A stretch of 32,446 bases of DNA from Parabacteroides sp. (GTDB lineage: Bacteria; Bacteroidota; Bacteroidia; Bacteroidales; Tannerellaceae): contig JAGBDR010000041.1 in the NCBI GenBank assembly GCA_017937385.1, forward strand, positions 1 to 32,446, given 5' to 3'. Below are positions 8,119-32,446 of the stretch, in pieces; position 1 is the stretch's first letter; each line of letters starts with the position of its first letter. The notes below the pieces were generated by a model. The model was given only the letters and a program-made list of their open reading frames with translations. It ran no database searches and had not been told where the DNA came from. Both the position numbers and the translations under genes were made by a program.

Positions 8119-8806
8119 AAAAACGGGTAGCCGGCTTCTCGCAGAACGACCATGTGCCGTTTAAGGAGAGGACGGGGGTATAGACACCGGCTACCTGATG
8201 AGGTTTGCTAATATAGGTAGGCAAGACCTTTTCCGCACAGACCGTCGTGTCTACGGTGTAAGCCTGTGTATGCGCCAATTCCTTTTTGCGTTCTTCCCCG
8301 AAAGGTTTCAGCCGGGTCGGATTGGACGAATAGAGGTTCAACTCCGACACAATCGCATTGTCCCCTTTCAAGACCTCGAACACCAGAACCAACTGCCCGT
8401 AGGCATAGGCTTTCTTCGGCAGGTCGATCGTGTAGCGTTGCTCCTTTCCCTCTTCCAGTACAACGGGAGCCTGCACCTCGTTGCCATCGGCCACGATGCG
8501 CTGTTCACGCCGGCTGTCGGCCAGGTAGACGACCTCCATCCGGTAATCGGCCTGTATATCCATCTGATCGAAAGCATAAATGACCATCCCGCCGAAATTG
8601 CAGGTTTTCGCCTCTTTGCTTCCCGTGAAAGCATCCGGCAATGTATAGTTATCACCCTTGATCAGAAAGGCTTGTGTACCCGCCACTCCGCAGTCGTTTG
8701 CCGCAACCTGCTGCATTTCCTTGTTCTGGGCCTGCAAGCCGAGGCATAAAGAAAGCATGACTCCCGCACCGAGCAGCCTCCTTTTAGATAGAAAGGACCT
8801 ACGCAT
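8063..8806 (-). pseudogene. Broken GH2 glycosidase, N-terminal fragment
   Basis: This frame of 247 codons has a signal peptide (MRRSFLSKRRLLGAGVMLSL... ending LQAQ), a beta-rich N-terminal domain and then the hallmark LSLNGTWSF that opens a GH2 sugar-binding domain. Immediately after CEKPATRFYE it reads out of phase into the sequence that, one frame over, encodes the GH2 catalytic barrel. Most of the sugar-binding domain, the Ig-like domain and the first part of the barrel are therefore missing, roughly 300-400 residues by comparison with family members. Both an internal deletion and a phase change are needed to explain this. Together with the fragment at 6442-8118 it represents one gene on the minus strand. 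Confidence 0.85.
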
Positions 8807-17297: not shown

Positions 17298-18191
17298 ATG
17301 AGCATATCGATAAGAAATCTCAATAAAGTGTATCCGAACGGAAACCATGCGCTGAAAGATGTCAACTTGGAGATACCGACGGGTATGTTCGGGCTTTTGG
17401 GACCGAACGGGGCGGGCAAGTCCACCCTGATGCGTATCTTGGTGGCTCTTATGGAGCCGACTTCGGGCGAGGTGAACATCTGCGGGTACGACCTGATGCG
17501 GCAACGCAAGAAGATACGGGGCATATTGGGATATCTGCCGCAGGATTTCCGCTTTTTTGCCAAATACAAAACGTATGAGTTTTTAGACTACGCTGCGCGT
17601 CTTTCCGGCATGAACCGGAAGTCTTTGCGGAAACAAGCGGTAGACGAGATGCTGGAAAATGTCGGGCTTTTCGATGTGCGCGACCGTTATGCCAACAAGT
17701 TGTCGGGAGGGATGAAACGTCGTCTGGGGATTGCGCAGGCGTTGATCCATCATCCGAAAGTGATTATCGTGGACGAACCTACGACGGGGCTCGATCCCGA
17801 AGAGCGGATCCGTTTCCGCAACCTCTTGTCGGAAGTCAGTGAAAACGACGTGACCATTATCCTTTCCACCCATATCGTGGGTGATATATCAAGTACGTGC
17901 AACTGCATGGCGCTTATGAACAAAGGAGAGGTCTCTTTCTACGGTTCCCCGCAGGATATGTTGAAACAGGCGGAAGGGAAAGTGTGGCGTATACGGGTGA
18001 CCGGAGACGAGCTGCATGAGGTGGATAAACGGTATCCGGTCATCTCGACGATTCCCTCCGGTACGGGTTGGGAAGTGCAGGTCGTGGCCGACGAGGTGCA
18101 GGGATATGACGCACAGTCCTATCCGCCGAACCTCGAACACGCTTACGTCTATTATATGGAAAACAAGTTGAACCGTTGGAGAAACGACTAA
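17298..18191 (+). CDS. ABC transporter ATP-binding protein
   Basis: This 297-residue cytoplasmic ATPase has Walker A GPNGAGKST (residues ~37-45), the Q-loop region LGYLPQDF, signature LSGGMKRR, Walker B VIIVDEPTTGLDP and H-loop STHIVGD. These features, with the C-terminal extension, fit the ABC-2 exporter type (CcmA-like). The ATG at 17298 is preferred over the TTG one codon earlier. The permease gene starts 14 bp downstream, so they form one transporter. The ATPase domain of the fusion protein at the operon end shares long blocks with it (TGMFGLLGPNGAGKSTLMRI and PEERIRFRNLL/PRERIRFRNLL), indicating a common origin. Confidence 0.93.
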   Translation: MSISIRNLNKVYPNGNHALKDVNLEIPTGMFGLLGPNGAGKSTLMRILVALMEPTSGEVNICGYDLMRQRKKIRGILGYLPQDFRFFAKYKTYEFLDYAARLSGMNRKSLRKQAVDEMLENVGLFDVRDRYANKLSGGMKRRLGIAQALIHHPKVIIVDEPTTGLDPEERIRFRNLLSEVSENDVTIILSTHIVGDISSTCNCMALMNKGEVSFYGSPQDMLKQAEGKVWRIRVTGDELHEVDKRYPVISTIPSGTGWEVQVVADEVQGYDAQSYPPNLEHAYVYYMENKLNRWRND

Positions 18192-18205: not shown

Positions 18206-21200
18206 ATGTCATTCATCACGAACATACGGTCTGTAGCCCAATACGAAAGCAAGATATTGGTGAGAAGCTGGTTCTTCCGCATCTTCACCCTGTTGGCCGC
18301 GTTTATTTTGGGGATTCTGAGCTTTAGCTTGTTGCTATCGGAAGATTCCGGCGGTTTTTGGTTTGGGAAAGCAGTCCCGTCCAATATTCCTTACCTGGTC
18401 TTGCTGCTGTTGAACACGGGGCAGGCGGTGGTCGCCGTCTTTCTTTCTTCCGAGTTTCTGAAGCGGGACAAGAAGCTCGATACGTCCGAGGTCTTTTATG
18501 TCCGGCCGCTCAGCAATGCCGAGTATGTAGTCGGGAAGATATGGGGGAACCTCCGGGTGTTCCTATTCCTGAACCTGCTGGTCATGTCGATTGTGCTGGC
18601 ATTCAATCTGATGGCTTCCGGCGTAGGGGTGGATGGGCTGGCCTATGCCGTGTATTTCCTGCTGATCAGCATACCGACGTTGATTTTTATCATCGGCCTT
18701 TCCATTTTCCTGATGTTGGTGTTGAGGAACCAGGCGCTTACTTTCATCCTGCTGTTGGGGTATATCGGGCTGACGTTGTTTTACATACAGGATAAGTTCT
18801 ACTACCTGTTCGATTACATGGTGTATAACCTGCCGTTGTTCAAATCGACGATTGTCGGGTTCAGTAACTTGGAGTTGATCTTGAACCACCGAGCGATCTA
18901 TTTCTTTGCCGGTTTGGGGTTCATCTTTTTCACGATTTTCCTATTCAAGCGTTTGCCGAATGCGAGGAGGAGCCATTATCCGTGGCTGTTCCTTTCGTTT
19001 TGTATGTTCTCGCTGGCGGGGACGGCAGGTTTCCGGCATGTGCGTTCGATTCTCCGGGGAGGGGAGATGCGTGCTTTGTACACAAGCATCAACAATCAAT
19101 ATGTCCATGAACCGAAGATGGCGATCGACCGCTATGATATTTCGGTGGAACAGAAGCCCGAAACGATCTGTTCTGTTGTCGGAATGAAAGGGACGGCTCT
19201 TACCACGTCGGACACTTTTGTTTTCTGCCTGAATCCGGGATTGAAGGTCGAAGAGGTGAAGGAAGGGGAGAGGCTGTTGGACTTTAAGCGGGAGGAACAG
19301 ATTCTACAGGTCGATTTCGGGAGGGAGATAGCCGCGGGAGATTCCGTTTCGCTTTCGGTCCGCTACGAGGGGCGGATCCGGGAGGATTTCTGCTATCTGG
19401 ATATCCCGGAGGAGATCTTGCAAGAGCCGTATAGTGAAGATATGCTCAAGCTTGATAAGAAATATAGTTTCCAGACCTCCGACTATGTGTTGTTTACGCC
19501 CGAAACCTATTGGTATCCGCGGCCCGGCACGGGGTATAGCGACAAGAGCCCCGACTGGCAGCAGACCTATTTCAGCCGGTTCCAGTTGGAGGTAAAACCG
19601 CTTCCCGGCCTGGTTGCCATTTCGCAGTCGGGGAATCATCCCTACCCGTCCGTTTCCCTGGTTATCGGGGAATATGAACAGAAGAGTGTGGAGTGTGACA
19701 GCACGCTCTATAGTATCTGGCACATAAAGGGGCATGCGTATTACGAAGCGGCGTTCGACTCGATCCGCGATACAATTCCGGGATTGATCCGGAACCTGCG
19801 GGAGAACCTGGAACGCACCTATAAGTTGAGTTACCCGTTCGACCGTTTTTCGGTGGTGGAGGTTCCGGCGCAGTTCTACAGTTATGTCCGTGCCTGGTCG
19901 CAGGCGCAGGAAACGGTGCAGCCGGAAATGGTCCTTTTCCCAGAATTAGGCTGTATGTTCAACCAACTGGATTTTGTCAAGCAGAAGCGGAACCAGTTGA
20001 AATGGTCGAAGCGGGGAGGGCGCGAGATCAGCGAGGAGGAGGCGGAGATTCGGGCGTTGAACAATTTCCTGTGGATTTTCTCGCAGACGGAGGGCAATTA
20101 TAATTACTCTTCCGGCCGGGGCCGGTTCAATATTTCTTCCAAGAACAATCCCTATTTCCTGTTTCCCGAACTTTATAACTTCCGGTATAATCTCTATTCT
20201 TCCGAATGGCCCGTTACGAACCGGCTGGTCGAACTTTTCCTGCAAAAGAAGTCCGACAACAACGGATGGGAACGCGAGATAAACGGGATCAGCCAGAACG
20301 AGAAAGCAAATCTCTTGATGGAGAAACATTCGTTTAAGGAACTTTTGGCTGATGTGGAACACCGCGATGTGCTGAGTAACGCGATCAGCCTGAAAGGGTA
20401 TTGCCTGTTTGCTCCGGCCGAAGTGAACATGGGAGTGAACCTGTTCCGGGATTCCCTGTATGCCTTGTTGGAACGGAACGAATTTCGGAATATGCGTTTC
20501 GAGAGTCTGCTGGATACGTTGGGGATGATCAGCGGAGCCGATCTCCGGGCGGGTATTTCCGGATGGAACCGTCCGACGCCTCTCCCTTTCTATACGGTCG
20601 GCCAGCCCGAAGTGACCAAGGTCACGAACAAAGGGCAGGAGAGCTTTGTGTTGAAACAATTGGTCAGCAACCTTTCCGACCACGACGGTATGCTTCAACT
20701 CGATATACAGGTCGGAGGCTATGGCCCGAATGTCGATCCGCGTATGAGCCGCAAACTGCCTCTTGCCGCCCGCCAGACCAAATTGCTGGTAACGGTTTGG
20801 GAGGAAGCCCCCCGCCAGGTGGATGTGAATACGCTGATAGCCGGTAATCTGCCGAATATCCTGAACCTGCCTGTTGCCGACATTCGGGAAGAGCGGGAAA
20901 GGGCAATCGATGCCGAAGGCGATTTCCTTGTTGCGGATTTTTCTCCCGAAGCGGAGGGGGAGGTGATTGTGGATAATGAGGATTCTCTCTTTTTCCTGTC
21001 CGAGCCGGCAGTTGTCGGGCTTCTTCCCAAGTGGCTTGACAAGGTGGAAGAGACTCCTTTCAAATATGCCGGCGTCTCGCCTTGGCGTGCCCCGTTGCAG
21101 TGGACGGCTACGACGAATGCGGCCTATTACGGCCGTTATATCCGGTCTGCCTATGTGATCAAAAGCGGAAACGGCAGCCAGACGGCGACGTGGAAAGTCC

Positions 21201-21478
21201 CGGTTCCCTCAGCCGGGACATACGATGTTTACTACTATGTTTCCAAAGACAATGAACTGAAATATAATAGGCAGGCCGGTGGAGAATACCATTTCAAGGT
21301 GGCGTATGACGAAGAAAACGAAGAGACTTATATAGATTTGAAAAGGGCGCATGAAGGTTGGGAATCCATCGGGACTTACTATTTCAGTTCCGATACGGTC
21401 CGGATCACCTTGACGAACGAGTGCAAGTTGCGGAGCGTGACGGCCGATGCGGTCAAAATAGTAAAACGATATGAATAG
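18206..21478 (+). CDS. ABC-2-type permease with giant extracytoplasmic M1-like region and golvesin/CBD-like C-terminus
   Basis: This 1090-residue protein has about seven predicted membrane helices within residues ~10-290. The next ~800 residues lie outside the membrane. Residues ~310-740 resemble M1 aminopeptidases (beta-sandwich, YFSRFQLEVKPLPGLVAIS, LSYPFDRFSVVEVPAQFYSY), but no HExxH zinc motif is present, so peptidase activity is not expected. The last ~137 residues (GRYIRSAYVIKSG, GTYDVYYYVSK, GWESIGTYYF, VTADAVKIVKR) resemble the golvesin/xanthan-lyase CBD-like domain. The start is the ATG at 18206; an in-frame TTG at 18176 would overlap the ATPase gene. It presumably pairs with the upstream ATPase. 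The outer domains may bind or stage a substrate in the periplasm. Confidence 0.8.
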   Translation: MSFITNIRSVAQYESKILVRSWFFRIFTLLAAFILGILSFSLLLSEDSGGFWFGKAVPSNIPYLVLLLLNTGQAVVAVFLSSEFLKRDKKLDTSEVFYVRPLSNAEYVVGKIWGNLRVFLFLNLLVMSIVLAFNLMASGVGVDGLAYAVYFLLISIPTLIFIIGLSIFLMLVLRNQALTFILLLGYIGLTLFYIQDKFYYLFDYMVYNLPLFKSTIVGFSNLELILNHRAIYFFAGLGFIFFTIFLFKRLPNARRSHYPWLFLSFCMFSLAGTAGFRHVRSILRGGEMRALYTSINNQYVHEPKMAIDRYDISVEQKPETICSVVGMKGTALTTSDTFVFCLNPGLKVEEVKEGERLLDFKREEQILQVDFGREIAAGDSVSLSVRYEGRIREDFCYLDIPEEILQEPYSEDMLKLDKKYSFQTSDYVLFTPETYWYPRPGTGYSDKSPDWQQTYFSRFQLEVKPLPGLVAISQSGNHPYPSVSLVIGEYEQKSVECDSTLYSIWHIKGHAYYEAAFDSIRDTIPGLIRNLRENLERTYKLSYPFDRFSVVEVPAQFYSYVRAWSQAQETVQPEMVLFPELGCMFNQLDFVKQKRNQLKWSKRGGREISEEEAEIRALNNFLWIFSQTEGNYNYSSGRGRFNISSKNNPYFLFPELYNFRYNLYSSEWPVTNRLVELFLQKKSDNNGWEREINGISQNEKANLLMEKHSFKELLADVEHRDVLSNAISLKGYCLFAPAEVNMGVNLFRDSLYALLERNEFRNMRFESLLDTLGMISGADLRAGISGWNRPTPLPFYTVGQPEVTKVTNKGQESFVLKQLVSNLSDHDGMLQLDIQVGGYGPNVDPRMSRKLPLAARQTKLLVTVWEEAPRQVDVNTLIAGNLPNILNLPVADIREERERAIDAEGDFLVADFSPEAEGEVIVDNEDSLFFLSEPAVVGLLPKWLDKVEETPFKYAGVSPWRAPLQWTATTNAAYYGRYIRSAYVIKSGNGSQTATWKVPVPSAGTYDVYYYVSKDNELKYNRQAGGEYHFKVAYDEENEETYIDLKRAHEGWESIGTYYFSSDTVRITLTNECKLRSVTADAVKIVKRYE

Positions 21479-22987
21479 ATGAGCGACATGATACGAAGAG
21501 AGTTACGATCCATGAAAAAGATCATGCAGATGGCCGCCGTCTGCTGGGGGCTGATTGTCCCTGCGGCGGGACAGATCCCGCTGACGATCGAGAAAGCGAT
21601 GGACATAGCGGAAGCGCATAGTCCTTCCTTGCGCCGTTCCCACATGAACCTGGAACGTTATCAGCAGAACCTGATTGCACAGCGGGCTTCCCTGAAATCG
21701 AAGTTTTCGTTGAATCTCAACCCGGTGGATTACAGCAAGAACCGCAGTTTCGACAACCGGTTGTCCCAATGGTACACGAACGAACGGTTCAGTACGAGCG
21801 GCACGTTCCAGGTAGACCAGCCGATCTTGTGGACGGATGGGGTCCTTTCGCTGATCAACCGCTTCGGCTGGCAGGATAACAACTCCAACATCGACGGGAT
21901 CAAGAACAGCAACAAGGCATTCAGCAACGACCTCTACCTGCAACTTTCGCAGCCTGTTTTTACCTATAACAAACGGAAGATGGAGTTGCAACAGATCGAG
22001 TACGACTATGAGAATGCCAACATCAGCTACGCCTTGCAACGGCTGAATACGGAAAAGGAGATCACCCAGCAGTTCTATTCCGTCTATATGGCGCAAAGCC
22101 AATTGGCGATTACCCGGGAGGAACTGGCCAATGCCCAACAAAGCTACGAGATCATCAAGAACAAAGTGGAAGCTGACCTGGCTGCCCGCGATGAGTTGTT
22201 CCAGGCGGAAGTGAACCTGGCTTCCGCACGTTCTTCGCTGGAGGAACAGCAGGTATCGCTCGAAAACTCGAAAGACCAGTTGAAACAGACATTGGGGATG
22301 GACCTGAACGAAGATATCATGGTCTTTGCCGAGGTACAGATCAAACCGGTGGAGGTGAATCTGGAAAAGGCGATCCGACATGGCCTTGAATCGCGTCTGG
22401 AACTGCGGCAGCGGGAAATCGAGAGCAAGGAGCTGGCTTTCGACATGATCAAGACGAAAGCGTTGAACGAGTTCAAGGGGGACATCTCCCTCTCTTTCGG
22501 CCTGATCGGGGACAACCGCCATCTGGAAAAGATTTACAATAACCCGACACAGAACCCGCGGGTCGCCATCAGCTTCAGTGTCCCGATCTTCGACTGGGGA
22601 GAAAAGAAAGCGCGTGTCAAGGCACAGGAAGTCGCCCGGAAGATCAACGAACTAGAGTTTCATGAAGACAAAGTCAACATCGAACTGAACATCCGCCAGA
22701 CTTGGCGCAGCCTGGAGAACCTGCTCTTGCAGATCAAGATAGCCGAGCAAAACGTCGCAAACGCGCAACGCACGTATGACCTGAACCTGACCCGCTATCG
22801 GGAGGGCGATATTACCGGTATGGACATGAACCAGTTCCAGACCCAGCTTTCGAATAAAAAGATTGCCTATACGCAGTCGCTTATCAACTATAAAATCGAA
22901 TTGTTGAACCTCAAGATACTTTCCCTCTACGATTTTGAGCACGATGTGCCGATTGTACCGATGGAAGAGTTAATAACGAAAAAGTAG
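21479..22987 (+). CDS. TolC-family outer membrane efflux protein
   Basis: This protein of up to 502 residues shows the TolC pattern: a signal peptide, LTIEKAMDIAEAHSPSLRRS at the start of the mature chain, long heptad-like helices, two repeats, and the conserved GWQDN-type and SFSVPIFDWGEKKARV segments. It would form the trimeric outer-membrane channel and periplasmic tunnel for the pumps in this operon. ATG 21479 abuts the stop of the permease gene. ATG 21512 gives a more compact signal peptide (MKKIMQMAAVCWGLIVPAAGQ) and may be the true start. The adaptor gene follows after a 1-bp gap. Confidence 0.93.
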   Translation: MSDMIRRELRSMKKIMQMAAVCWGLIVPAAGQIPLTIEKAMDIAEAHSPSLRRSHMNLERYQQNLIAQRASLKSKFSLNLNPVDYSKNRSFDNRLSQWYTNERFSTSGTFQVDQPILWTDGVLSLINRFGWQDNNSNIDGIKNSNKAFSNDLYLQLSQPVFTYNKRKMELQQIEYDYENANISYALQRLNTEKEITQQFYSVYMAQSQLAITREELANAQQSYEIIKNKVEADLAARDELFQAEVNLASARSSLEEQQVSLENSKDQLKQTLGMDLNEDIMVFAEVQIKPVEVNLEKAIRHGLESRLELRQREIESKELAFDMIKTKALNEFKGDISLSFGLIGDNRHLEKIYNNPTQNPRVAISFSVPIFDWGEKKARVKAQEVARKINELEFHEDKVNIELNIRQTWRSLENLLLQIKIAEQNVANAQRTYDLNLTRYREGDITGMDMNQFQTQLSNKKIAYTQSLINYKIELLNLKILSLYDFEHDVPIVPMEELITKK

Positions 22988-22988
22988 T

Positions 22989-24047
22989 ATGAATATGAAA
23001 TATACAGTCACCTCTCTCTTTTTGTTTGTCCTGTTGACGGCCGGTTGTAACAATCAGCCGCAAAATACGCAGAACGATATTGCTACCCCCGTATCGGTAA
23101 TGGAACTGAAAAAAGGTTCCATCAGCAAGTTGGTCAACACGACCGGAACGGCACAGCCCACCTACGGGGTGACGCTCAATTCCGAAATGAGCGGTTTATA
23201 TAAGTTGCAGACCAATCCCCGTACAGGCAAACCCTTCAAATTGGGCGATAGGGTCTCCAAAGGACAGTTGATCGTCCGCCTGGAAGACCGGGAGTATGAG
23301 AACGGCATCGCGATCGACGCCAAAGAGTTGAGCCTCGAAATAGCCGAGCAGGAACAGGTGAAACAGAAAGCCTTGTATGAGAAAGGCGGAGTGACGCTCA
23401 GCGAAATGCGTAATACGGAGGTGAAAGTGACGAATGCCCGCTACGACTACGAGAACGGCAAGCTCAATTTGGAGAAGATGAATATCAAGGCGCCTTTTGA
23501 CGGAGTGATTGTGGATTTGCCCCACTACACGTCCGATGTCCGTATCGAACAAGGGAAACCGGTTGTCGGCATCATGGATTATACCCGTATGTATATGGAT
23601 ATCAACCTGCCGGAAAGTGCTATCGGATATGTGAAAACGGATCAGCCGGTCTATATCACCCACTATACGCTGCCTGAAGATACGATCCGGGGCGTGATCA
23701 GCGAACTGTCGCCTGCCATCAGTTCCGAAACCCGTACTTTCAAAGGGAAGATATGGATACAGAACGACGAACTGAAGCTTCGTCCCGGTATGTTCGTCAA
23801 AGCGGATATCGTGGTGGACAAGGCAGACAGTGCCATCATCATCCCGAAAGAGGTGGTCCAGTCCAACCGCCGTATCAAATATGTCTATATTGTCGAGAAA
23901 AACACGGCTCTACTTCGCGAACTCAAGACCGGGCTGGAGGACGACAAGCACATTCAGGTACTGGAGGGGTTGAAAGAAAACGACAACCTGGTCGTGAAAG
24001 GTTTTGAAACATTGAAAGAGAATGCAAAGGTAAAGGTCCAGAAATGA
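22989..24047 (+). CDS. Periplasmic adaptor subunit of RND efflux system (HlyD/MFP family lipoprotein)
   Basis: This 352-residue lipoprotein has a lipobox LTAGC (Cys20). It then has the adaptor pattern: beta-barrel and lipoyl-like halves, a short helical hairpin (KELSLEIAEQEQVKQKALYEKGGVTLSEMRN) and INIKAPFDGVIVDLPHY-like lipoyl strands, with a conserved LRPGMFVKADIVV near the end. It would link the RND pumps to the TolC channel. Its stop overlaps the RND start by 4 bp (ATGA), which indicates translational coupling. MNMKY allows a start at either of the first two ATGs. Confidence 0.93.
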   Translation: MNMKYTVTSLFLFVLLTAGCNNQPQNTQNDIATPVSVMELKKGSISKLVNTTGTAQPTYGVTLNSEMSGLYKLQTNPRTGKPFKLGDRVSKGQLIVRLEDREYENGIAIDAKELSLEIAEQEQVKQKALYEKGGVTLSEMRNTEVKVTNARYDYENGKLNLEKMNIKAPFDGVIVDLPHYTSDVRIEQGKPVVGIMDYTRMYMDINLPESAIGYVKTDQPVYITHYTLPEDTIRGVISELSPAISSETRTFKGKIWIQNDELKLRPGMFVKADIVVDKADSAIIIPKEVVQSNRRIKYVYIVEKNTALLRELKTGLEDDKHIQVLEGLKENDNLVVKGFETLKENAKVKVQK

Positions 24048-27000
24048 AACGTATAATCAAATTTTCGGTCAGTAATCCGGTCACGATCTGGATGCTGGTA
24101 CTGGCGATCTTGCTGTTGGGTAAGATTTCATACGACCAGTTACCGGTCGATCTGTTGCCTGACCTGAATAATCCCCGCCTCTTTATCGAGCTGAAAGCAG
24201 GCGAACGTCCGCCGGAAGAGATCGAGAAGCAATTTGTCAAGAACATGGAGGCGATGGCGATCCGGCAGAGCGACGTGACGCAGGTGTCGTCTGTGATCCG
24301 TGCCGGTTCCGCCCGTATCACAGTCGAGTACACTTGGAAGAAAGATATGGATGAGGCTTTTCTCGACTTGCAGAAAGCCATGAATCCCTTTGCCCAGAAC
24401 AAGGATATTACCGAACTCAAGATCACGCAACACGATCCGAACCAATCTCCCGTCGTCCTGATCGGGCTTTCGCATCGCAGTATGACCGATATGGCGGAAC
24501 TTAGGAAGGTGGCGGAAAGCTATATCCGCAACGAGTTGATCCGGTTGGAAGGCGTGGCGGATGTTACCTTGTCGGGTGACGAAGTCAGTACGCTGGTAAT
24601 CCGAACGGATCCGTATAAGCTGGATGCTTTCAAGCTGACGATAAACGATCTTTCTTCTAAGATAGAGGCGAATAACCAAAGCATATCCGGCGGCCGTGTC
24701 AGCGAGTTGGGTTTGCAATACCTGGTCAAGAGTTCGAGCCTGTTTGCGACGGAAGGCGATTTTGAAAATCTGATTGTCGGCTATAAGCCGGTTACGGCCG
24801 AGGGTGGGGAAGAGGGCGAAAAAGCCCCGATCTTCCTGCGCGAGGTCGCTACCGTCGGTTTCGAGAATGCACGGCCGGAAAATATCGTCCGCATCAATGG
24901 CGAGCGCAGCATCGGGTTGTCGGTCTATAAGGAGATGCGTTTCAACACGGTAAAGGTGGTCGATGGTGTGATCCGCCAGTTGGCGGTTCTCGAACAGGCG
25001 TTGCCCGGTTATCGTTTTCAGGTAATCACAAACCAGGGTACTTTTATCAAGAACGCGATCGGAGAGGTAAAGAGCAGTGCCGTCCTGGGAATTGTCCTGG
25101 CGGTGGTGATCCTGTTCGTGTTTCTTCGCCGTTTAGGGACGACATTGATCGTCAGCTTGGCTATCCCGATTTCCATTGTCGCCACTTTCAACCTGATGTT
25201 TTTCAATCATCTTACGCTCAATATCATGACACTGGGCGGATTGGCGCTCGGCGCCGGTATGCTGGTGGATAATGCGATCGTGGTGATCGAAAGCATTTTC
25301 CGTAACCAGGAGAAGGGAATGGCAGTGCGCGAAGCGGCTATAACGGGAACTTCCGAGGTGGCCGGTGCGGTCATGGCCTCGACATTGACGACGATTGTCG
25401 TCTTCCTACCGATTGTTTACCTGCATGGTGCCTCCGGGGAGCTGTTTAAAGATCAGGCCTGGACAGTGACCTTTTCGTTGATATCGTCGTTGTTTGTGGC
25501 GATATGGGTGATTCCGATGTTATACGACCGGATTGCCGGACGGTCGGACCGGGGTACCGGTAATGGGGGCACACGGCCGGATTGGGGTGTCGGTGATGGG
25601 GACGCATGGCCAGACCGGGGTGTCGGTGATGGGGACGCACGGTCGGATTGGGGTACCGGTGGTAGAGACGCACGGCCGTGCGTCTCTACGGGACGCGAGG
25701 GAAACGGCATCCGGATTACCGGTTACACCCCCCTGTTGCGCATCCTGTTGCATCACCGTTGGTGGGTGATCGGGTGTGCCGTGGGGTTGTTGGCATTGGC
25801 AGGGGCGTTGGTGCCTTTTATCGGTACGGAGTTTATGCCGAAAGCCGAGAGCAAGGCGTTCTCTGCCATTATCAAATTGCCGGAGGGAACTCCGTTGGAA
25901 CGTACCGCTTCGGCTGTCGGAAATTTGGAAGTATTGATGCGGACGATCTCGCAGGACTCCCTTTGTACGATCTACAGCCATGTCGGATCGGGGAGCGGTT
26001 CGGAGAATGATATCTTTGAAGGCGAGCATACGGCTGTCATGAGAGTGATCCTCTCTTCCTCCTGTCCGGTTCCGCCCGAAGAGGTGATGGCACAGTTCGT
26101 CCGGATGACCGAGAATACCGAGGGACTGGAGGTTGCCTTGAAACAGGAGGAGAACTCCCTCAGTTCTCTTTTGGGAAGCGAAGGGGCTCCTATCGGGATT
26201 GAAGTGAAAGGGGAGGAGCTGGATATGATCGGCACTATCACCGGTGAAGTAAAGGAACGGATAACCGGTATTCCCGGAATCTATAACGTCCGGTCGTCTG
26301 TCGAAGACGGGGCTCCGGAGGTGACGATCTCCGTCGACCGTACGGTTGCCGGTATTCATAATGTCAGCGTCTCGACCGTTATCGAGCAGTTGAAACAGCA
26401 GCTCAGCGGCCTTGAATCCGGCAAGATGGAATACCGGGGAGAGATGCGGGACATCCTGATCAAGGTGCCCGATATCACTCTGCACGACCTTGGCGGACTC
26501 GTCATACGAAACGGAGAAAAAGAGTTCCGTTTGCAGGAGATCGCTACGATCACCCATTCGCAAGCGCCGAAAGAGATTTTCCGCCGGGGGCAGAACCGTA
26601 TCAGTAAGGTGACGGCTCACCTCGATGCGGACTATTCGCTCGACAAGGTTGCCAGCGAGATACGCCTTGCCGTGAAAGATATCGACTTGCCTGCCAACTA
26701 TTCGATTACCGTCACCGGTGAGGAAGAGAAACGGCAGGAGTCCATGAACAGCCTGCTGTTTGCTTTGGCTCTTTCAGTGATTTTGGTTTATATGGTGCTC
26801 GCTTCGCAGTTCGAGTCGCTGTTGCATCCGTTCACGATCTTGCTGACGATCCCATTGGCGGTGGTAGGGGCGATCCTGTTGTTCTTCCTGACGGGGACAA
26901 CGCTCAATATGATGGGAGTGATCGGCATCGTGATGCTGGTCGGTATCGCAGTGAACAACTCGATTATCCTGGTCGACCGTATCAACCAGCTGAAACAATC

Positions 27001-27265
27001 CGGGATGGAACTGACAGAGGCGATTGTGGAGTCCGGCCGGCAACGGATCCGCCCGATCCTGATGACGACGCTTACGACGATCCTGGCCCTCCTGCCGATG
27101 ACGTTCGGTTTCGGCGAAGGGGCTTCGCTCCGTTCCCCGATGGCGATCGCGGTGATCGGCGGGTTGGTGACTTCGACCGTCATGAGCCTGGTTGTGATCC
27201 CGTGCGTGTATTTTGTATTTGAAAAAATGAAAAAGGGCAAAACCGCTGTTTCCGGTGCCGGGTAG
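24044..27265 (+). CDS. RND efflux pump (HAE-1-like)
   Basis: This 1073-residue inner-membrane pump has 12 predicted helices, two large periplasmic loops and the tandem-duplicated layout of the family. GMLVDNAIVV marks TM4 and VGIAVNNSIILVDRIN marks TM10. Compared with AcrB, the first TM4 Asp is kept, the second is Asn, and the TM10 Lys position is Asn. This pattern also occurs in other RND subfamilies, so proton relay may differ in detail. A 52-residue low-complexity linker (residues ~498-549) between the two halves is made of 11-residue repeats plus the palindromic element. Porter-domain and Thr-rich TM11 segments look intact. The natural substrate is unknown. Confidence 0.92.
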   Translation: MKRIIKFSVSNPVTIWMLVLAILLLGKISYDQLPVDLLPDLNNPRLFIELKAGERPPEEIEKQFVKNMEAMAIRQSDVTQVSSVIRAGSARITVEYTWKKDMDEAFLDLQKAMNPFAQNKDITELKITQHDPNQSPVVLIGLSHRSMTDMAELRKVAESYIRNELIRLEGVADVTLSGDEVSTLVIRTDPYKLDAFKLTINDLSSKIEANNQSISGGRVSELGLQYLVKSSSLFATEGDFENLIVGYKPVTAEGGEEGEKAPIFLREVATVGFENARPENIVRINGERSIGLSVYKEMRFNTVKVVDGVIRQLAVLEQALPGYRFQVITNQGTFIKNAIGEVKSSAVLGIVLAVVILFVFLRRLGTTLIVSLAIPISIVATFNLMFFNHLTLNIMTLGGLALGAGMLVDNAIVVIESIFRNQEKGMAVREAAITGTSEVAGAVMASTLTTIVVFLPIVYLHGASGELFKDQAWTVTFSLISSLFVAIWVIPMLYDRIAGRSDRGTGNGGTRPDWGVGDGDAWPDRGVGDGDARSDWGTGGRDARPCVSTGREGNGIRITGYTPLLRILLHHRWWVIGCAVGLLALAGALVPFIGTEFMPKAESKAFSAIIKLPEGTPLERTASAVGNLEVLMRTISQDSLCTIYSHVGSGSGSENDIFEGEHTAVMRVILSSSCPVPPEEVMAQFVRMTENTEGLEVALKQEENSLSSLLGSEGAPIGIEVKGEELDMIGTITGEVKERITGIPGIYNVRSSVEDGAPEVTISVDRTVAGIHNVSVSTVIEQLKQQLSGLESGKMEYRGEMRDILIKVPDITLHDLGGLVIRNGEKEFRLQEIATITHSQAPKEIFRRGQNRISKVTAHLDADYSLDKVASEIRLAVKDIDLPANYSITVTGEEEKRQESMNSLLFALALSVILVYMVLASQFESLLHPFTILLTIPLAVVGAILLFFLTGTTLNMMGVIGIVMLVGIAVNNSIILVDRINQLKQSGMELTEAIVESGRQRIRPILMTTLTTILALLPMTFGFGEGASLRSPMAIAVIGGLVTSTVMSLVVIPCVYFVFEKMKKGKTAVSGAG
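25535..25666 (+). repeat. 33-bp minisatellite (four units) in the RND cytoplasmic linker
   Basis: Units begin at 25535, 25568, 25601 and 25634, each 33 bp or 11 codons. They translate to AGRSDRGTGNG, GTRPDWGVGDG, DAWPDRGVGDG and DARSDWGTGGR. A fifth unit start at 25667 runs directly into the palindrome. Each unit opens with a word like GACGCACGG, which is part of the palindrome half-site. The array lies between TM6 and TM7, where a variable cytoplasmic linker is tolerated. Confidence 0.88.
25662..25689. repeat. 28-bp palindromic element, copy D (RND pump linker)
   Basis: This is a perfect 28-bp palindrome identical to copy B, read here in the frame encoding GRDARPCVST. It directly terminates the 33-bp repeat array, and the last 33-bp unit boundary falls inside its left arm. 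Confidence 0.9.
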
Positions 27266-27289: not shown

Positions 27290-27600
27290 AATCGCGGGCG
27301 ATTCAAGGTTCCGAAGGGGGCCGGCGGGATGAATAGCCTGCGATTCGAGGTTCCGAAAAGGGTCGGCAGGACGAATCGCCCGCGATTCGAGGTTCCGAAG
27401 GGGTCCAGCGGGACAAATCGCCCGCGATTCGGGGTCCCGAAGGGGTCCAGCGGGACAAATCGCCCGCGATTCGGGGTCCCGAAGGGGTCCAGCGGGACAA
27501 ATCGCCCGCGATTCGGGGTTCCGAAGGGGTCGGCGGGATGAATCGCCTGCGATTCGGGGTGCGAACCTTGGTTCCGGATGTGAATCGCCCGCGATTCGGA
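27290..27600. repeat. Eight-copy 42-bp tandem array with dyad motifs before the RND-ABC gene
   Basis: Unit starts are 27290, 27332, 27374, 27416, 27458, 27500, 27541 and 27583, a 42-bp period with one 41-bp step. Each unit opens with a dyad AATCGC-NN-GCGATT (6-bp arms, 2-bp centre; the second unit is imperfect and the first has GG in the centre instead of CC or CT), followed by a conserved GGTTCCGAAGGGGTC-like tract. It fills most of the gap between the two RND genes. The period is 14 codons and stop-free in several frames, which creates spurious ORFs on both strands. The dyads could be operator sites or RNA hairpins. Confidence 0.92.
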
Positions 27601-27633
27601 TATTTGTCTTGGATGATGATAAAAAAAAGCGAT

Positions 27634-30600
27634 ATGAATTTTTTACTACATAGAAGAATTGCAATCAGTATGCTGTTCATTGCCCTGACGGGGTTGGGCT
27701 ACGTCTCGTACAGGCAGTTACCGGTCGAGCTGCTACCCAACGCGGAGTTGCCGATGTTGTTCGTACAGGTCACTTCGGCGCAGGACATGGACCCGTCGTA
27801 TGTGGAATCGGAGGTCGTGATCCCCCTTGAGGGCGCTATCGGAACCGTCGGTGGAGTGGAGCAGATCAAATCCCAGATCGACAGCCGCCAGTCTTCCATC
27901 CAGATCGATTTCAAACCGAATATCAATTTCAAGATCACAGCTTTGAAGTTGCAGGAGAAAATCAACGAGACCGCCTCTTCATTGCCCGATGGCTTTACGG
28001 TGCAGGTACAGAAGATTGATGTCTCGATGCTTACCGGCAACTTCATGTCGCTCCAGGTACGGGGTTCGGGCGGTACGGACCGGGTCCGAAACTGGGTAGA
28101 AAAGGAGATACGGCCTGATCTGGAAAACATCGATGGCATCGCCTCTGTCAATATCTATGGCGGGCGGGAGAAAGCTATCGAGGTACAACTTGATCCCGAT
28201 GCCTGCAAAGCGCTCGACCTGACCCCTTCCGCTATCAGCAGCCTCTTGACACAGAATACGCAGGAGAAGGCTTTCGTCGGCTATACAAACGAACCGGACG
28301 GGAAATACTTCGTCCATGTCAATTCACCTTATACCGAGGTTTCCGACCTTGAAAACCTCGTCGTCGCTCCCGGTCCGGTCCTATTGAAAGACATTGCAAC
28401 CGTTTTCTTCGATATGAAAGAGGAGACAAGCTACAGCCGGGTCAACGGCAAAGATGCCGTTTCCGTCTCCTTGCTTGCCGACTCGCAGGCCAACCTGATC
28501 CAGCTTTCCCACCGGACAGTCGAGGTGATCGAACGTCTGAACGAACGGCTTGCTCCGCTCGACCTCTCGATCGTGGTCGAGAACAATCAGGCGGAGACGA
28601 TGGAGGACAACATTGACCAGATCATCCACTTGGCGATCGTGGGCGGCCTGCTTGCCGTCGTCATCCTCTGGCTTTTCTTGAAGAACTTCCGGTTGGTACT
28701 TTTCATCGCCCTGTCCATCCCGATTTCCGTCTATACGGCGTTCAATTTCTTCTACGGGGCAGGAATTACGATCAACAGCCTTACGTTGGTCGGAATGGCG
28801 TTAGCGATCGGAATGTTGTTGGACAATAGTGTGGTGGTTCTGGAGAATATCTACCGTCTTGTTGCCGCCGGTAACACGCCCGAACGTTCCGTGACGCAAG
28901 GTACGCGCGAAGTCTGGCGTTCCATCCTCGCCGCCACCCTGACGACGGTCACGGTTTTCCTGCCGTTCGTCTTTTCCGACAAGTTCCTGATCAAACTGAT
29001 GGGCCATCATATCGGTGTCTCCATCATCTCAACCCTTTTGATATCCTTAGCTGTCGCTCTCCTTTTCATCCCGATGGCAACCTATACGGTATTGCGGAAG
29101 CCGGATAAAGGGACTTCCTTTTATGAGAAAGTGTCCGTCACGCAACGGCCGGTACAGATCTATTTAGTGCTGTTGAAGACCTGTATGCGGAATCCGGGAG
29201 GGACAATTTTCGCAGCTGTTATCCTGTTGTTCCTTTGCCTGATCCTTTCTGTTTCCCTGAATATCCAGGACCGGAAAGAGGTGGAGAGCGACCGTTTCAG
29301 CATCTATGTGACGATGCCGACCGGCAGCACGCTGGAGAATGCCGACCAAGTGGTCCATGTCATTGAGGAACGCCTTGCCGAGTTTCCGGAGAAACAGGAC
29401 CTGATCAGCCGTGTCCGGGAGACGGATGCCGAGTTGACACTGGTCCTCCGAGACGATTACCGCCAGATCGGGAAACGCAGTATCGCGGATATCAAATCCG
29501 ACGTACAACTCCGTCTTCGTGCCATCAACGGTGCCGAAATATCCCTCTCCGAAGCCGGAGGCAGTGGCAAGGGGGGAAGCGGTTCCGGAGATAGAATGGG
29601 GGGCATGGGCAGCTTCATGCGCCTTTTGGGAATGGGTGAGAACCAGGAACGGATCGTGATCAAAGGTGCCGATTTCGACTTGATGCAGCGGGTGGCGGAA
29701 GACTTTCGGTATTACCTCGACGAACAGGAGTTCATCCGCAATACCCGTGTCTCCTATAACCGCCGGCAACCGGAGATCCGTCTCGGTTTCGACCCGATTC
29801 TACTGACCTCCTACGAGATTACCCGCCAGCATATCGCCTCCGGACTCACGTCGCTGAACCCGGAGATTTCGTCCGGAACCTCTTTCAAGGTAGGGGAAGA
29901 CACCTACGATATCGTCATCCGCAACCGGACAAACCGGACGGAAGAAGAGGAAGAGGCGGACAGGAACCGGAACAAGACGGTGGACGACCTGCGCGAAGTG
30001 CGTATACCGAGCACTTCCGGTGGCCTGCACAAACTGGAGGATATCGCCTCCGTCCATTATGGCCGCGGACGTGCCCGTATCACCCGCTTGAACCAGGACA
30101 AACAAATCGAACTGTTCTATTCCTTTTCGCGCGATGTCGAGGATTCGAAAGACCTTCTTGAAGGTTACCGGTCGGATATCGACCAGTTGGTGTCGGGCTA
30201 TAACCTGCCGTCGGGCGTGGCGGTCGAGGTGTTCCACGAGGAAGATATGCTGGCCGACTTCAAGTTCCTGTTGTTGGCAGCGTTTATCCTGATCTTTATG
30301 ATATTGGCGTCGGTGTTCGAGTCCTTTGCGATGCCGTTCGTCCTGCTCTTCTCCATCCCGTTGGCGGCGATCGGTTCGCTGTTGGCGTTGCTGCTGACGG
30401 GAAACAGCTTGTTGAACAATGCGAATGTGATGATCGGGTTCCTGATTCTGTTGGGAGTGGTGGTCAACAACGGCATTATCCTGATCGACTATGCCAATAT
30501 CCTCCGCCGGCGCGGTTACCGCCGCAACAGGGCGTTGATGACGGCCGGGTTGTCGCGTATCCGCCCGATCCTGATCACCTCCATCACGACGATTGTCGCC

Positions 30601-32349
30601 ATGTTTCCGATGGCAATGGGCCACTCGGAATATGCCGGAGCGATCGGCGCTCCGTTTGCCATTACCGTCATCGGCGGGCTTTCTTTTTCGGCATTGCTGA
30701 CGTTGATTCTGATCCCGACTGTCTGCATGGGGTTGGAAAACACGTTGCAATGGTACAGGAGGTTATCTCCGAAAGTCTGGGTGCTGCACGGTATACTCGT
30801 CGGGGTGGGAGCCGGCTGTATCGGATTCTATGGAGGCAGCCTCTTGTGGCAGTCCGTCTACGGCGTGTTGCTGTTGGCCAGTATTCCGGGCGTGACCTAT
30901 TTTATGCAGGCAAGCTTGCGCCGTGCCCGTTCGAAGGTGATCGATCCGGAGGCGGATATCCATATTTCCGTCCGTAACTTGGTGAAGATATACGATTGGC
31001 CGGGGCGGATCGGCCGTCAGTGGCGAAGCGGCCTGCAAATCCGCCGGCGGTTAGGGATCGCCGGTGAATATCGTTCGTTGAAAGATTTTGCGGATGCAGG
31101 TTGGCAGTTCGCCTTGTTGGGTTTCGGTATCTGGTTTACCTGGTTCTTTATCGACAGCCGGACGTGGATCTTTATCCTTTCTTTCGCGGTCTATGCCGCG
31201 ACGCTTCACCTGTGGCACAAGGTACGGAAATACCTCTATGAGCGGTTTGCAGGAGGCCGGATGGTGAAATACATCAACCGGATTGTTTTCTGGGGGCTTC
31301 CTCCGCTGATCCTTTCCGGCCTGTTCCGCCGGCTGGACAATCCGAGTCTGGTTGGGACGGTCGGAATGTTGTGGGCGTTCTGCATCGCGGTTTATGTGAC
31401 TTCCGGTTATCTGTATGAGAAAAATATCCATATCGAACGGGTGAAAGGGCGTTTCGCCGGATTGCGCCGTTCGTGGTTCCGTATGGTGAAAAGTATTCCG
31501 TTGATCGGGAAACGCCGTCGGCCTTTCAAGGCGCTCCGGGGCGTATCGTTTGAGATCCGAACAGGCATGTTCGGTCTTTTGGGGCCGAACGGGGCAGGCA
31601 AGTCCACCCTGATGCGAATCATCTGCGGGATCCTGGAACAGAGCTATGGCAGTATCTGGATCAACGGACTGGACACTCGTGTCTATCGGGAGGAATTGCA
31701 GAGCCTGATCGGTTTCCTGCCACAGGAGTTCGGAACCTACGAAAATATGTCGTCCTGGGAATTTCTCGACTACCAGGCGATCCTGAAAGGGCTCATCGAT
31801 CCCGACCTGCGCCGGGAACGGTTGGAGTATGTGCTCCGGGCCGTCCACATGTTCGACCGTAAGGATGAGAAGATCGGTTCTTTCTCCGGCGGCATGAAAC
31901 AGCGTATCGGTATCGCTTTGATCCTGTTGCACCTGCCGCATATCTTAGTGGTGGACGAGCCGACTGCCGGACTCGACCCGCGCGAACGTATCCGTTTCCG
32001 GAATTTACTGGTAGAACTGAGCAAGGACCGCATCGTGATTTTCTCTACCCATATCATTGAAGACATCTCCAGCTCATGCAGCCAGGTGGTCGTAATCAAC
32101 AAGGGCAGCTTGAAATATTTCGGCGATCCGGTCAATATGGTCGGCATGGCGGACGGAAAAGTCTGGCAGTTCGACATCGATAAAACAACATTTGAACAGA
32201 CATTGGATAAGTCCCGGATCGTCAACCATATCCAGAAAGACGACCGCATCCGGGTCCGCTACCTCTCGACCACTTCCCCGCATGACGGGGCCGTACAGGT
32301 AGAACCGAATCTGGAGGACGCTTATCTTTGTTTATTGAAAGGAATGTAA
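27634..32349 (+). CDS. RND efflux pump fused to an ABC ATPase domain
   Basis: This ~1571-residue protein is a complete RND pump followed by an ABC ATPase. The RND part covers ~1-1035 and includes GMLLDNSVVVLEN in TM4 and GVVVNNGIILIDYAN in TM10. Two further predicted helices follow, then the ABC first-strand motif ISVRNLVKIY at ~1111. An insertion of ~175 residues with about four predicted helices comes next, then the rest of the ATPase: Walker A GPNGAGKST (1317-1325), LGFLPQEF-like Q-loop, signature FSGGMKQR, Walker B ILVVDEPTAGLDP and H-loop STHIIED. All ATPase motifs look intact and there is no frameshift or stop. The start is uncertain: ATGs at 27613, 27616 and 27634 are possible, and a frame from 27538 would translate the repeat array. 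I chose 27634 because it opens with the family-typical MNFLLHRRIAISMLF. Confidence 0.9.
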   Translation: MNFLLHRRIAISMLFIALTGLGYVSYRQLPVELLPNAELPMLFVQVTSAQDMDPSYVESEVVIPLEGAIGTVGGVEQIKSQIDSRQSSIQIDFKPNINFKITALKLQEKINETASSLPDGFTVQVQKIDVSMLTGNFMSLQVRGSGGTDRVRNWVEKEIRPDLENIDGIASVNIYGGREKAIEVQLDPDACKALDLTPSAISSLLTQNTQEKAFVGYTNEPDGKYFVHVNSPYTEVSDLENLVVAPGPVLLKDIATVFFDMKEETSYSRVNGKDAVSVSLLADSQANLIQLSHRTVEVIERLNERLAPLDLSIVVENNQAETMEDNIDQIIHLAIVGGLLAVVILWLFLKNFRLVLFIALSIPISVYTAFNFFYGAGITINSLTLVGMALAIGMLLDNSVVVLENIYRLVAAGNTPERSVTQGTREVWRSILAATLTTVTVFLPFVFSDKFLIKLMGHHIGVSIISTLLISLAVALLFIPMATYTVLRKPDKGTSFYEKVSVTQRPVQIYLVLLKTCMRNPGGTIFAAVILLFLCLILSVSLNIQDRKEVESDRFSIYVTMPTGSTLENADQVVHVIEERLAEFPEKQDLISRVRETDAELTLVLRDDYRQIGKRSIADIKSDVQLRLRAINGAEISLSEAGGSGKGGSGSGDRMGGMGSFMRLLGMGENQERIVIKGADFDLMQRVAEDFRYYLDEQEFIRNTRVSYNRRQPEIRLGFDPILLTSYEITRQHIASGLTSLNPEISSGTSFKVGEDTYDIVIRNRTNRTEEEEEADRNRNKTVDDLREVRIPSTSGGLHKLEDIASVHYGRGRARITRLNQDKQIELFYSFSRDVEDSKDLLEGYRSDIDQLVSGYNLPSGVAVEVFHEEDMLADFKFLLLAAFILIFMILASVFESFAMPFVLLFSIPLAAIGSLLALLLTGNSLLNNANVMIGFLILLGVVVNNGIILIDYANILRRRGYRRNRALMTAGLSRIRPILITSITTIVAMFPMAMGHSEYAGAIGAPFAITVIGGLSFSALLTLILIPTVCMGLENTLQWYRRLSPKVWVLHGILVGVGAGCIGFYGGSLLWQSVYGVLLLASIPGVTYFMQASLRRARSKVIDPEADIHISVRNLVKIYDWPGRIGRQWRSGLQIRRRLGIAGEYRSLKDFADAGWQFALLGFGIWFTWFFIDSRTWIFILSFAVYAATLHLWHKVRKYLYERFAGGRMVKYINRIVFWGLPPLILSGLFRRLDNPSLVGTVGMLWAFCIAVYVTSGYLYEKNIHIERVKGRFAGLRRSWFRMVKSIPLIGKRRRPFKALRGVSFEIRTGMFGLLGPNGAGKSTLMRIICGILEQSYGSIWINGLDTRVYREELQSLIGFLPQEFGTYENMSSWEFLDYQAILKGLIDPDLRRERLEYVLRAVHMFDRKDEKIGSFSGGMKQRIGIALILLHLPHILVVDEPTAGLDPRERIRFRNLLVELSKDRIVIFSTHIIEDISSSCSQVVVINKGSLKYFGDPVNMVGMADGKVWQFDIDKTTFEQTLDKSRIVNHIQKDDRIRVRYLSTTSPHDGAVQVEPNLEDAYLCLLKGM

Positions 32350-32356
32350 GGATTTA

Positions 32357-32409
32357 TGATTTGAGATTTATGATTTATCATCGACACATGAATCATAAAC
32401 CTCAAATCA
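32357..32409 (+). terminator. Hairpin at the 3' end of the export operon
   Basis: Arms 32357-32375 and 32391-32409 pair over 19 positions with one mismatch across a 15-nt loop, starting 8 bp after the stop codon. The stem is A/T-rich, and the remaining 37 bp repeat AATTCATAAATCAT-like words up to the window edge. No clear T-run follows, so termination is likely but not certain. Confidence 0.5.
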
Positions 32410-32446
32410 CAATTCATAAATCATAATTCATAAATCATAAATCATA

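Follow-up and report, generated by a model that had tools for sequence, protein, structure and literature searches.

RND pumps and ABC transporters are usually treated as two separate energy sources for trans-envelope export, with RND pumps normally running on the proton motive force. Several described systems resemble the locus studied here in part. The HAE-1 RND tripartite pumps (AcrAB-TolC, MdtABC) share with it a full ACR_tran permease, an adaptor and TolC encoded in the operon and, as with MdtB/MdtC, a pair of RND proteins; MdtB came top among the matches listed when solved structures were searched with the RND. MacAB-TolC and its relatives likewise combine an ABC motor with an adaptor and TolC, and the GldA model of ABC-2 exporters (TIGR03522) matches the ATPase of our locus with 172.3 bits, below its cut-off of 402.6. 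The CusA-type RND::OEP fusions of Bacteroidota, seen here in relatives of the same order (L253:450-4763; L254:97-4452, minus strand), likewise extend an RND at its C-terminus within a single chain of ~1440 aa, in their case by a TolC-like domain. The ArsAB arsenite pump is alike in concept, being a proton-driven pump able to couple to an ATPase, according to the available part of PMC13381914.

The locus departs from each of them. Unlike in HAE-1 pumps, an ATPase lies in the same chain as an RND permease, the equivalents of AcrB D408 and K940 are lost in both RNDs, and the operon adds a second ATPase together with one clear and one probable ABC permease. Compared with MacAB and its relatives, the motor here is fused to an RND and its nucleotide-binding domain (NBD) is split by a hydrophobic insert; a MacB model is absent from the best 25 of 199 NCBIfam families matching the fusion. 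Relative to GldA-type exporters, the NBD is fused to an RND and its first strand is displaced. In the CusA-type fusions the extension is an OEP, not an ATPase, and the ArsAB families are unrelated, ArsA and ArsB being separate proteins. V. cholerae VarABCDEF was considered as a parallel and set aside, the available part of its report (PMC5595328) describing a plain ABC tripartite pump. The preliminary description of this DNA knew of no characterised system of this kind, and our search agrees: neither an RND-ABC fusion nor an ATP-driven RND occurred among the matches listed in open-access literature (titles and abstract starts, with subscription papers and preprints outside the search). Judged from sequence, the novelty would lie in the architecture, an RND pump and an ABC ATPase in one chain, for which a mechanism is proposed below.

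The window, that is the whole stretch of DNA analysed (32,446 nucleotides), is an entire contig (C25) of its genome. In loci not cut by contig ends the operon runs A1, P1, TolC, adaptor, RND1, fusion, P2. Residue numbers in the fusion follow a 1603-residue reading that begins at 27538. The features are as follows.

17298..18191, + strand: A1, stand-alone ABC ATPase of 297 aa, first operon gene (Pfam ABC_tran, E 3.6e-32)
18206..21478, + strand: P1, 1090-aa ABC-2 permease, with Golvesin_C and a degenerate M1-peptidase-like region in its large, presumably periplasmic part (Pfam)
21479..22987, + strand: TolC-like outer-membrane factor (OEP), 502 aa (Pfam OEP, E 1e-43)
22989..24047, + strand: membrane fusion/periplasmic adaptor protein (RND_mfp), 352 aa (TIGR01730, 186.3 bits, cut-off 94.9)
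24044..27265, + strand: RND1, separate RND permease, 1073 aa (Pfam ACR_tran, E 1.9e-212)
27290..27560, no strand: 42-bp tandem repeat between RND1 and the fusion (repeat scan)
27634..32349, + strand: RND2::NBD fusion, 1571 aa counted from the homologous start
27637..30723, + strand: RND2 domain, full length (residues 34-1062; Pfam ACR_tran profile 3-1016 of 1021, E 4.7e-158)
30724..30957, + strand: linker part 1, two hydrophobic segments (~1083-1096 and ~1102-1120; hydropathy averaged over 54 fusions)
30958..30999, + strand: displaced first strand of the NBD with A-loop Tyr1152, IHISVRNLVKIYDW, ~residues 1141-1154, as placed by a profile of 32 A1 ATPases
31000..31521, + strand: hydrophobic insert inside the NBD, about four segments by hydropathy, 176 aa in the window
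31522..32346, + strand: NBD core (Pfam ABC_tran; A1 profile; motif invariance)
32387..32446, no strand: 7-bp tandem repeat at the contig end (repeat scan)
G000:C97:40-750 (profile match; ORF L218:40-753): P2 of the same genome, outside the window, at the start of contig C97

The frame of the fusion is open and stop-free from 27538 to 32349 in the ORF reading of the window. It contains both a full-length ACR_tran, which places it in the RND superfamily, and ABC_tran (residues 1333-1477 of the 1603-residue reading, E 5.6e-25), bearing out the earlier claim that an RND permease runs into an ABC ATPase in one chain. Position 27538 is merely the first ATG and falls within the 42-bp tandem repeat; the homologous start, taken from the starts of relatives (MNFLLHRR or similar), is 27634 (MNFLLHRR...), as had been proposed. 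The gap between RND1 and the fusion amounts to 272 bases to the first ATG in the window, while several relatives overlap by 4 bases. A further tandem repeat, of 33 bp, lies inside RND1 (window 25540-25678).

We then compared the fusion over two overlapping samples, whose counts are not to be summed. Set 1 comprises 63 loci with a linker ORF, the window included; set 2 comprises the best 80 of the 381 stretches confirmed among 404 found by a pattern scan of the genome collection. In set 1 the frame is a closed full-length fusion in 54 loci, runs off the contig end in 8, and in one (L041) is broken among several broken operon genes; in set 2 the figures are 68 closed and full-length, 9 off the contig end and 3 broken (L134, L151, L157). 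RND2 and NBD were seen as two intact genes in none of the loci of either set (63; 80), so the possibility that homologues are always encoded as two genes, raised in the preliminary description as grounds for abandoning the idea, was not borne out. The catalytic motifs of the ATPase, described there as retained, are indeed intact: Walker A (31582-31608), Q1396, the signature SGGMKQR (1450-1456), Walker B DE (1473-1474) and H1505 are those of an ABC ATPase. The residues of Walker A, the signature, Walker B and what we take to be the A-loop, Q-loop and H-loop are invariant in 54/54 closed full-length fusions of set 1 and, together with the presumed D-loop, in 68/68 closed fusions of set 2.

The linker between both domains, used as query, matched in 52 of 393 genomes of the order, spread over 22 families by database labels. 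In a draw from the phylum it matched in 6 of 395 genomes, two of which (the window's own and G139) were already counted, leaving 4 additional ones and two families outside the order. Among 34 same-genus genomes, six have uninterrupted frames of 1596-1618 residues and G003 a broken copy; the remaining ones gave just distant RND matches among the matches listed. The best 80 of the 381 stretches come from Parabacteroides, Bacteroides, Tannerella (T. forsythia), Proteiniphilum, Fermentimonas, Dysgonamonadaceae, Prevotellaceae, Rikenellaceae, Prolixibacteraceae and others. The distribution of the fusion is patchy. Five genomes with P1 and no linker (G048, G170, G216, G221, G310) are not counter-examples, because their contigs stop short of the fusion, that of G048 within RND2; in the G048 assembly RND2 continues up to the contig end, and neither linker nor P2 is present.

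Selection was assessed in five pairwise comparisons. The dN/dS ratio was 0.03-0.06 for the NBD, 0.05-0.09 for RND2, 0.11-0.18 for linker part 1 and 0.13-0.27 for the insert, hence low in all parts. Broken frames, as in L151, L157 and the equally long contigs of L041 and L134, are what one would expect if the fusion were an artefact (a missed stop, a frameshift or a chimeric assembly), yet in these MAGs several operon genes are broken at once, through sequencing error or decay. Given closed full-length frames in 54/63 and 68/80 loci, the fusion is neither chance nor assembly error, and we consider the chances of an artefact negligible; a missed stop or chimeric assembly was rejected for the wide conservation of the fusion, with its linker in 52/393 genomes of the order and 4 more of the phylum.

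The statement that the permease continues into an ABC ATPase holds for the covalent chain and is too simple for its layout, in which a linker, the A-loop strand and a hydrophobic insert precede the rest of the NBD. An ordinary NBD is a contiguous stretch with the A-loop ~30 residues ahead of the Walker A lysine, and the fused NBD departs from this. A profile of 32 stand-alone A1 ATPases from the same operons aligns with it (291 bits) from model position 16, at residue 1330, the first strand being absent there. The profile places this missing strand, with its A-loop tyrosine, at ~1141-1154 in 54/54 fusions, where it is also the best match in the whole protein (54/54). When the linker was shuffled (200 shuffles each), the strand score was never reached in 48/54 fusions, the worst case being 5/200. 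The tyrosine is invariant (54/54 in set 1, 68/68 in set 2), and lies 137-253 residues ahead of the Walker A lysine (median 205, 54 fusions) against 29 in the 32 A1 ATPases. By these profile matches, the NBD of the fusion is split by a hydrophobic insert and its A-loop strand displaced; a membrane insert at this site is not known from other NBDs.

Mean hydropathy over the 54 fusions shows two segments ahead of the strand and about four between the strand and the core. The insert measures 164-226 residues in 52/54 fusions and is shorter, at 110, in L117 and L118. Of seven inserts inspected one by one, those of L100 and L119 were ambiguous, while L117 has a pair of short segments and L118 a single merged stretch, possibly a hairpin of two segments. 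This reading of hydropathy, distinct from a topology prediction, would give an even number of segments in long and short inserts alike, and an even number would leave both pieces of the NBD on the same side of the membrane.

The protein encoded directly downstream, P2, has 237 residues and six hydrophobic segments. The window lacks it because the contig ends; the window finishes, and C97 begins, in one and the same short tandem repeat, so the assembly probably broke there. P2 lies downstream on the same strand in 61/62 loci tested of set 1 and 76/78 of set 2, at a median gap of ~11 bases, and is present in 52/393 genomes of the order, the same 52 that have the linker (lists compared by eye). 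The exceptions are L103, where 671 bases of DNA follow the fusion and P2 sits on another contig of the same genome (G132), and L188 and L197, two loci missing the usual neighbours as well. Pfam assignments of P2 are weak: at E<=0.1, ABC2_membrane_3 matches 3/39 members (best E 5.7e-5) and not the other 36, ABC2_membrane_4 matches 1/39, and an acyltransferase model also matches 3/39 (best E 8.8e-4). NCBIfam ABC models gave no match to P2, the P1 and P2 profiles showed no significant similarity (hhalign E 0.1, probability 0.6%), and the search against solved structures returned no real match, just one at chance level to a designed protein. From its six segments, these weak Pfam matches and its position, P2 is probably an ABC-2 permease. 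The preliminary description suggested that the covalent link might join the RND pump to the ABC permease upstream in the operon; the idea of such a junction gains support, but the likeliest permease partner of the fused NBD would be P2 rather than the upstream permease.

Median identities, calculated as identical residues divided by query length in the 45 loci that have every part, rank the components as NBD 0.67, A1 0.63, RND1 0.52, RND2 0.52, P2 0.49, TolC 0.47, adaptor 0.47, linker 0.36 and P1 0.35. The linker being less conserved than either P2 or the NBD, its segments look like a scaffold rather than a translocation path.

The remaining genes of the operon are those of a tripartite efflux system, adaptor and TolC being encoded with an inner-membrane pump, with neighbours lost in several MAGs; in L080, L084 and L114 a longer antisense frame masked the adaptor or TolC label. 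Among 30 aligned P1 homologues, at E<=0.1, Golvesin_C is found in 30/30, ABC2_membrane_2 in 22/30 and Peptidase_M1 in 14/30. The HExxH zinc motif was seen a single time, in 1/50 P1 proteins, and there it falls outside the stretch that is M1-like in the window's P1; the peptidase-like part therefore probably has no catalytic activity. Second copies of P1 (ABC-2/M1-like/Golvesin_C; L213-L217, in genomes G122, G212, G224, G312 and G323) show no A1, NBD or pump-gene match in the stretch around them. Upstream of A1, same-genus loci carry a rubrerythrin gene, and small Spy/CpxP-like proteins (likeness by eye) adjoin the operon in L033, L036, L115, L119 and L108; of four such genes tested, L036 not among them, one (L108) matched LTXXQ. 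Sigma-70-type genes stand divergent from the operon at L035:1131-1706, L089:66-641, L086:127-708 (minus strand) and L086:815-1174. In L086 a DUF6249 protein is encoded in between, and sigma-70 domains matched in 3/3 of the sigma-like genes tested (L035, L086, L089). These neighbours, found in some families only, hint at a possible envelope-stress connection. Elsewhere in the window, on the minus strand at 6442-8806, a frame (6442-8118) matching Glyco_hydro_2_C from profile position 120 overlaps another (8063-8806), perhaps one hydrolase gene split.

The presence of A1 opens another reading, in which the fused NBD is half of a heterodimeric ATPase with A1 that serves a P1/P2 heterodimer, the link to the RND being a mere tether. 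A1 and the fused NBD are 42% identical in the window, where A1 shows canonical motifs by eye, and complete operons encode one A1, one NBD and two permeases, all in keeping with such a pair. Loci that have lost their neighbours point the other way, though not decisively. In four of six such cases (L167, L175, L180, L184; L167 and L184 with little upstream sequence) the fusion and P2 stay together with no RND1, TolC or adaptor adjoining, and P1 is on another contig in three of these four genomes and not found in the fourth. The six MAG genomes with isolated fusion loci hold P2 in 6/6, P1 in 5/6 (one partial) and a close RND1 in 4/6 (73-78% in the first half, 62-66% in the second, against <=32% in the other two), and the fusion is still one chain. 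Neither is the existence of orphan P1 paralogues with no A1- or NBD-matching gene nearby decisive. Taken together, we hold the heterodimer to be unlikely.

The RND of the fusion had been called proton-driven, which is doubtful. The relay residues of HAE-1 pumps, in AcrB numbering, are D407, D408, K940 and R971, and their equivalents were read from alignments; neither RND2 nor RND1 has the full set. In RND2 (n=54) the D407 and R971 equivalents are kept in 54/54, while the D408 equivalent is N in 47, T in 5, S in 1 and C in 1, and the K940 equivalent is N in all 54. RND1 (n=56) keeps D407 and R971 in 56/56 and has N at 408 in 56 and N (54) or S (2) at 940; the RND1 of the window follows suit, with N at both. 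In set 2 fusions (n=68) the equivalents are D407 D in 67 and N in 1, D408 N in 68, K940 N in 68 and R971 R in 68. That this loss was nearly unique, as suggested by 14 control RNDs (D408 lost in 1, K940 not K in 2), was undone by a larger sample of 34, none from the operon: D is found at 408 in 24 and K/R at 940 in 27, and whereas 27/34 keep an acid at 408 or K/R at 940, both are missing in 7. Loss of the D408 and K940 equivalents in both RNDs of the operon makes proton drive of RND1 and RND2 doubtful. RND1 and RND2 each form one clade in the tree (support 100) and are joined at SH-aLRT 90, a sister relation that we do not rely on, the tree being quick, midpoint-rooted, built on 56 of 144 aligned rows and subject to long-branch warnings.

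One could suspect from this pattern that the relay has been given up and that the RND cycle is instead powered by the fused NBD as it binds and hydrolyses ATP, P2 serving as a membrane clutch, much as ArsA turns ArsB into a pump run on ATP. Several observations speak for it: the change hits both RNDs of the operon, and D is found at the D408 equivalent, or K/R at that of K940, in none of 54 RND2, 56 RND1 and 68 set 2 fusions (from overlapping genomes). In AcrB, substituting one of D407, D408, K940 or R971 abolishes extrusion, according to the available part of a review (PMC8277102), and ArsAB offers the precedent of a secondary pump able to take an ATPase, as the accessible portion of PMC13381914 has it. 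Yet the D407 equivalent is kept in 54/54, 56/56 and 67/68 and that of R971 in 54/54, 56/56 and 68/68, P2 would be superfluous as a permease, and the 7/34 controls without the D408 and K940 equivalents mean that the pattern is not tied to ATP use. An ATP-energised RND is, in our judgement, rather unlikely. The same tentative, rather improbable standing would apply to a primary-active RND class, in which a relay-less RND pair is powered by an attached NBD threaded through the membrane, with P2 as obligate partner. The retained D407 and R971 equivalents, and the usual dependence of RND pumps on the proton motive force, would instead suit an NBD that transports nothing and gates or regulates an RND pump still driven by protons. 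With the K940 and D408 equivalents lost, and with constant P2 company and full catalytic conservation pointing to an ABC transporter, we find this very unlikely.

The reading we prefer, to which we give a probability of about one half, is that the fused NBD and P2 form an ABC exporter covalently tethered to a heteromeric RND/adaptor/TolC conduit, with ATP powering the loading. It starts from what the sequences contain, namely the fusion, the NBD motifs, the displaced A-loop strand with its insert, the P2 company, the operon and the altered relay. The exporter itself is suggested by P2 company, its six segments, the invariant NBD motifs and the conservation of NBD and P2 above that of the linker. 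Against it, the ABC-2 family membership of P2 is weak, and the fused NBD could equally pair with A1.

Under this tethered-exporter model, the seven genes (A1, P1, TolC, adaptor, RND1, RND2::NBD, P2) would encode one transport machine, whose stoichiometry, pairing, direction and substrate class we infer. RND1 and RND2 may form a mixed RND trimer beneath the adaptor and TolC by analogy with MdtB2C, the precedent described in the available part of PMC4338810. The linker segments would hold the NBD at the cytoplasmic face, where it would act as motor for P2. ATP hydrolysis would move a substrate, perhaps an amphiphile or lipid-like, via P2 to the periplasmic side near the RND entry sites, from where the RND/adaptor/TolC conduit would export it. 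By tying one ABC unit to one RND pump, the covalent link would channel both steps, and the machine may include a second ABC unit in A1/P1.

An RND pump and an ABC ATPase are here joined in one chain, whose linker was found in genomes of 22 families of the order and two outside it, with catalytic residues kept. This offers a natural system for asking whether ATP can drive an RND, how an RND conduit takes over from an ABC step, and whether the fold of an NBD can accommodate a membrane segment.
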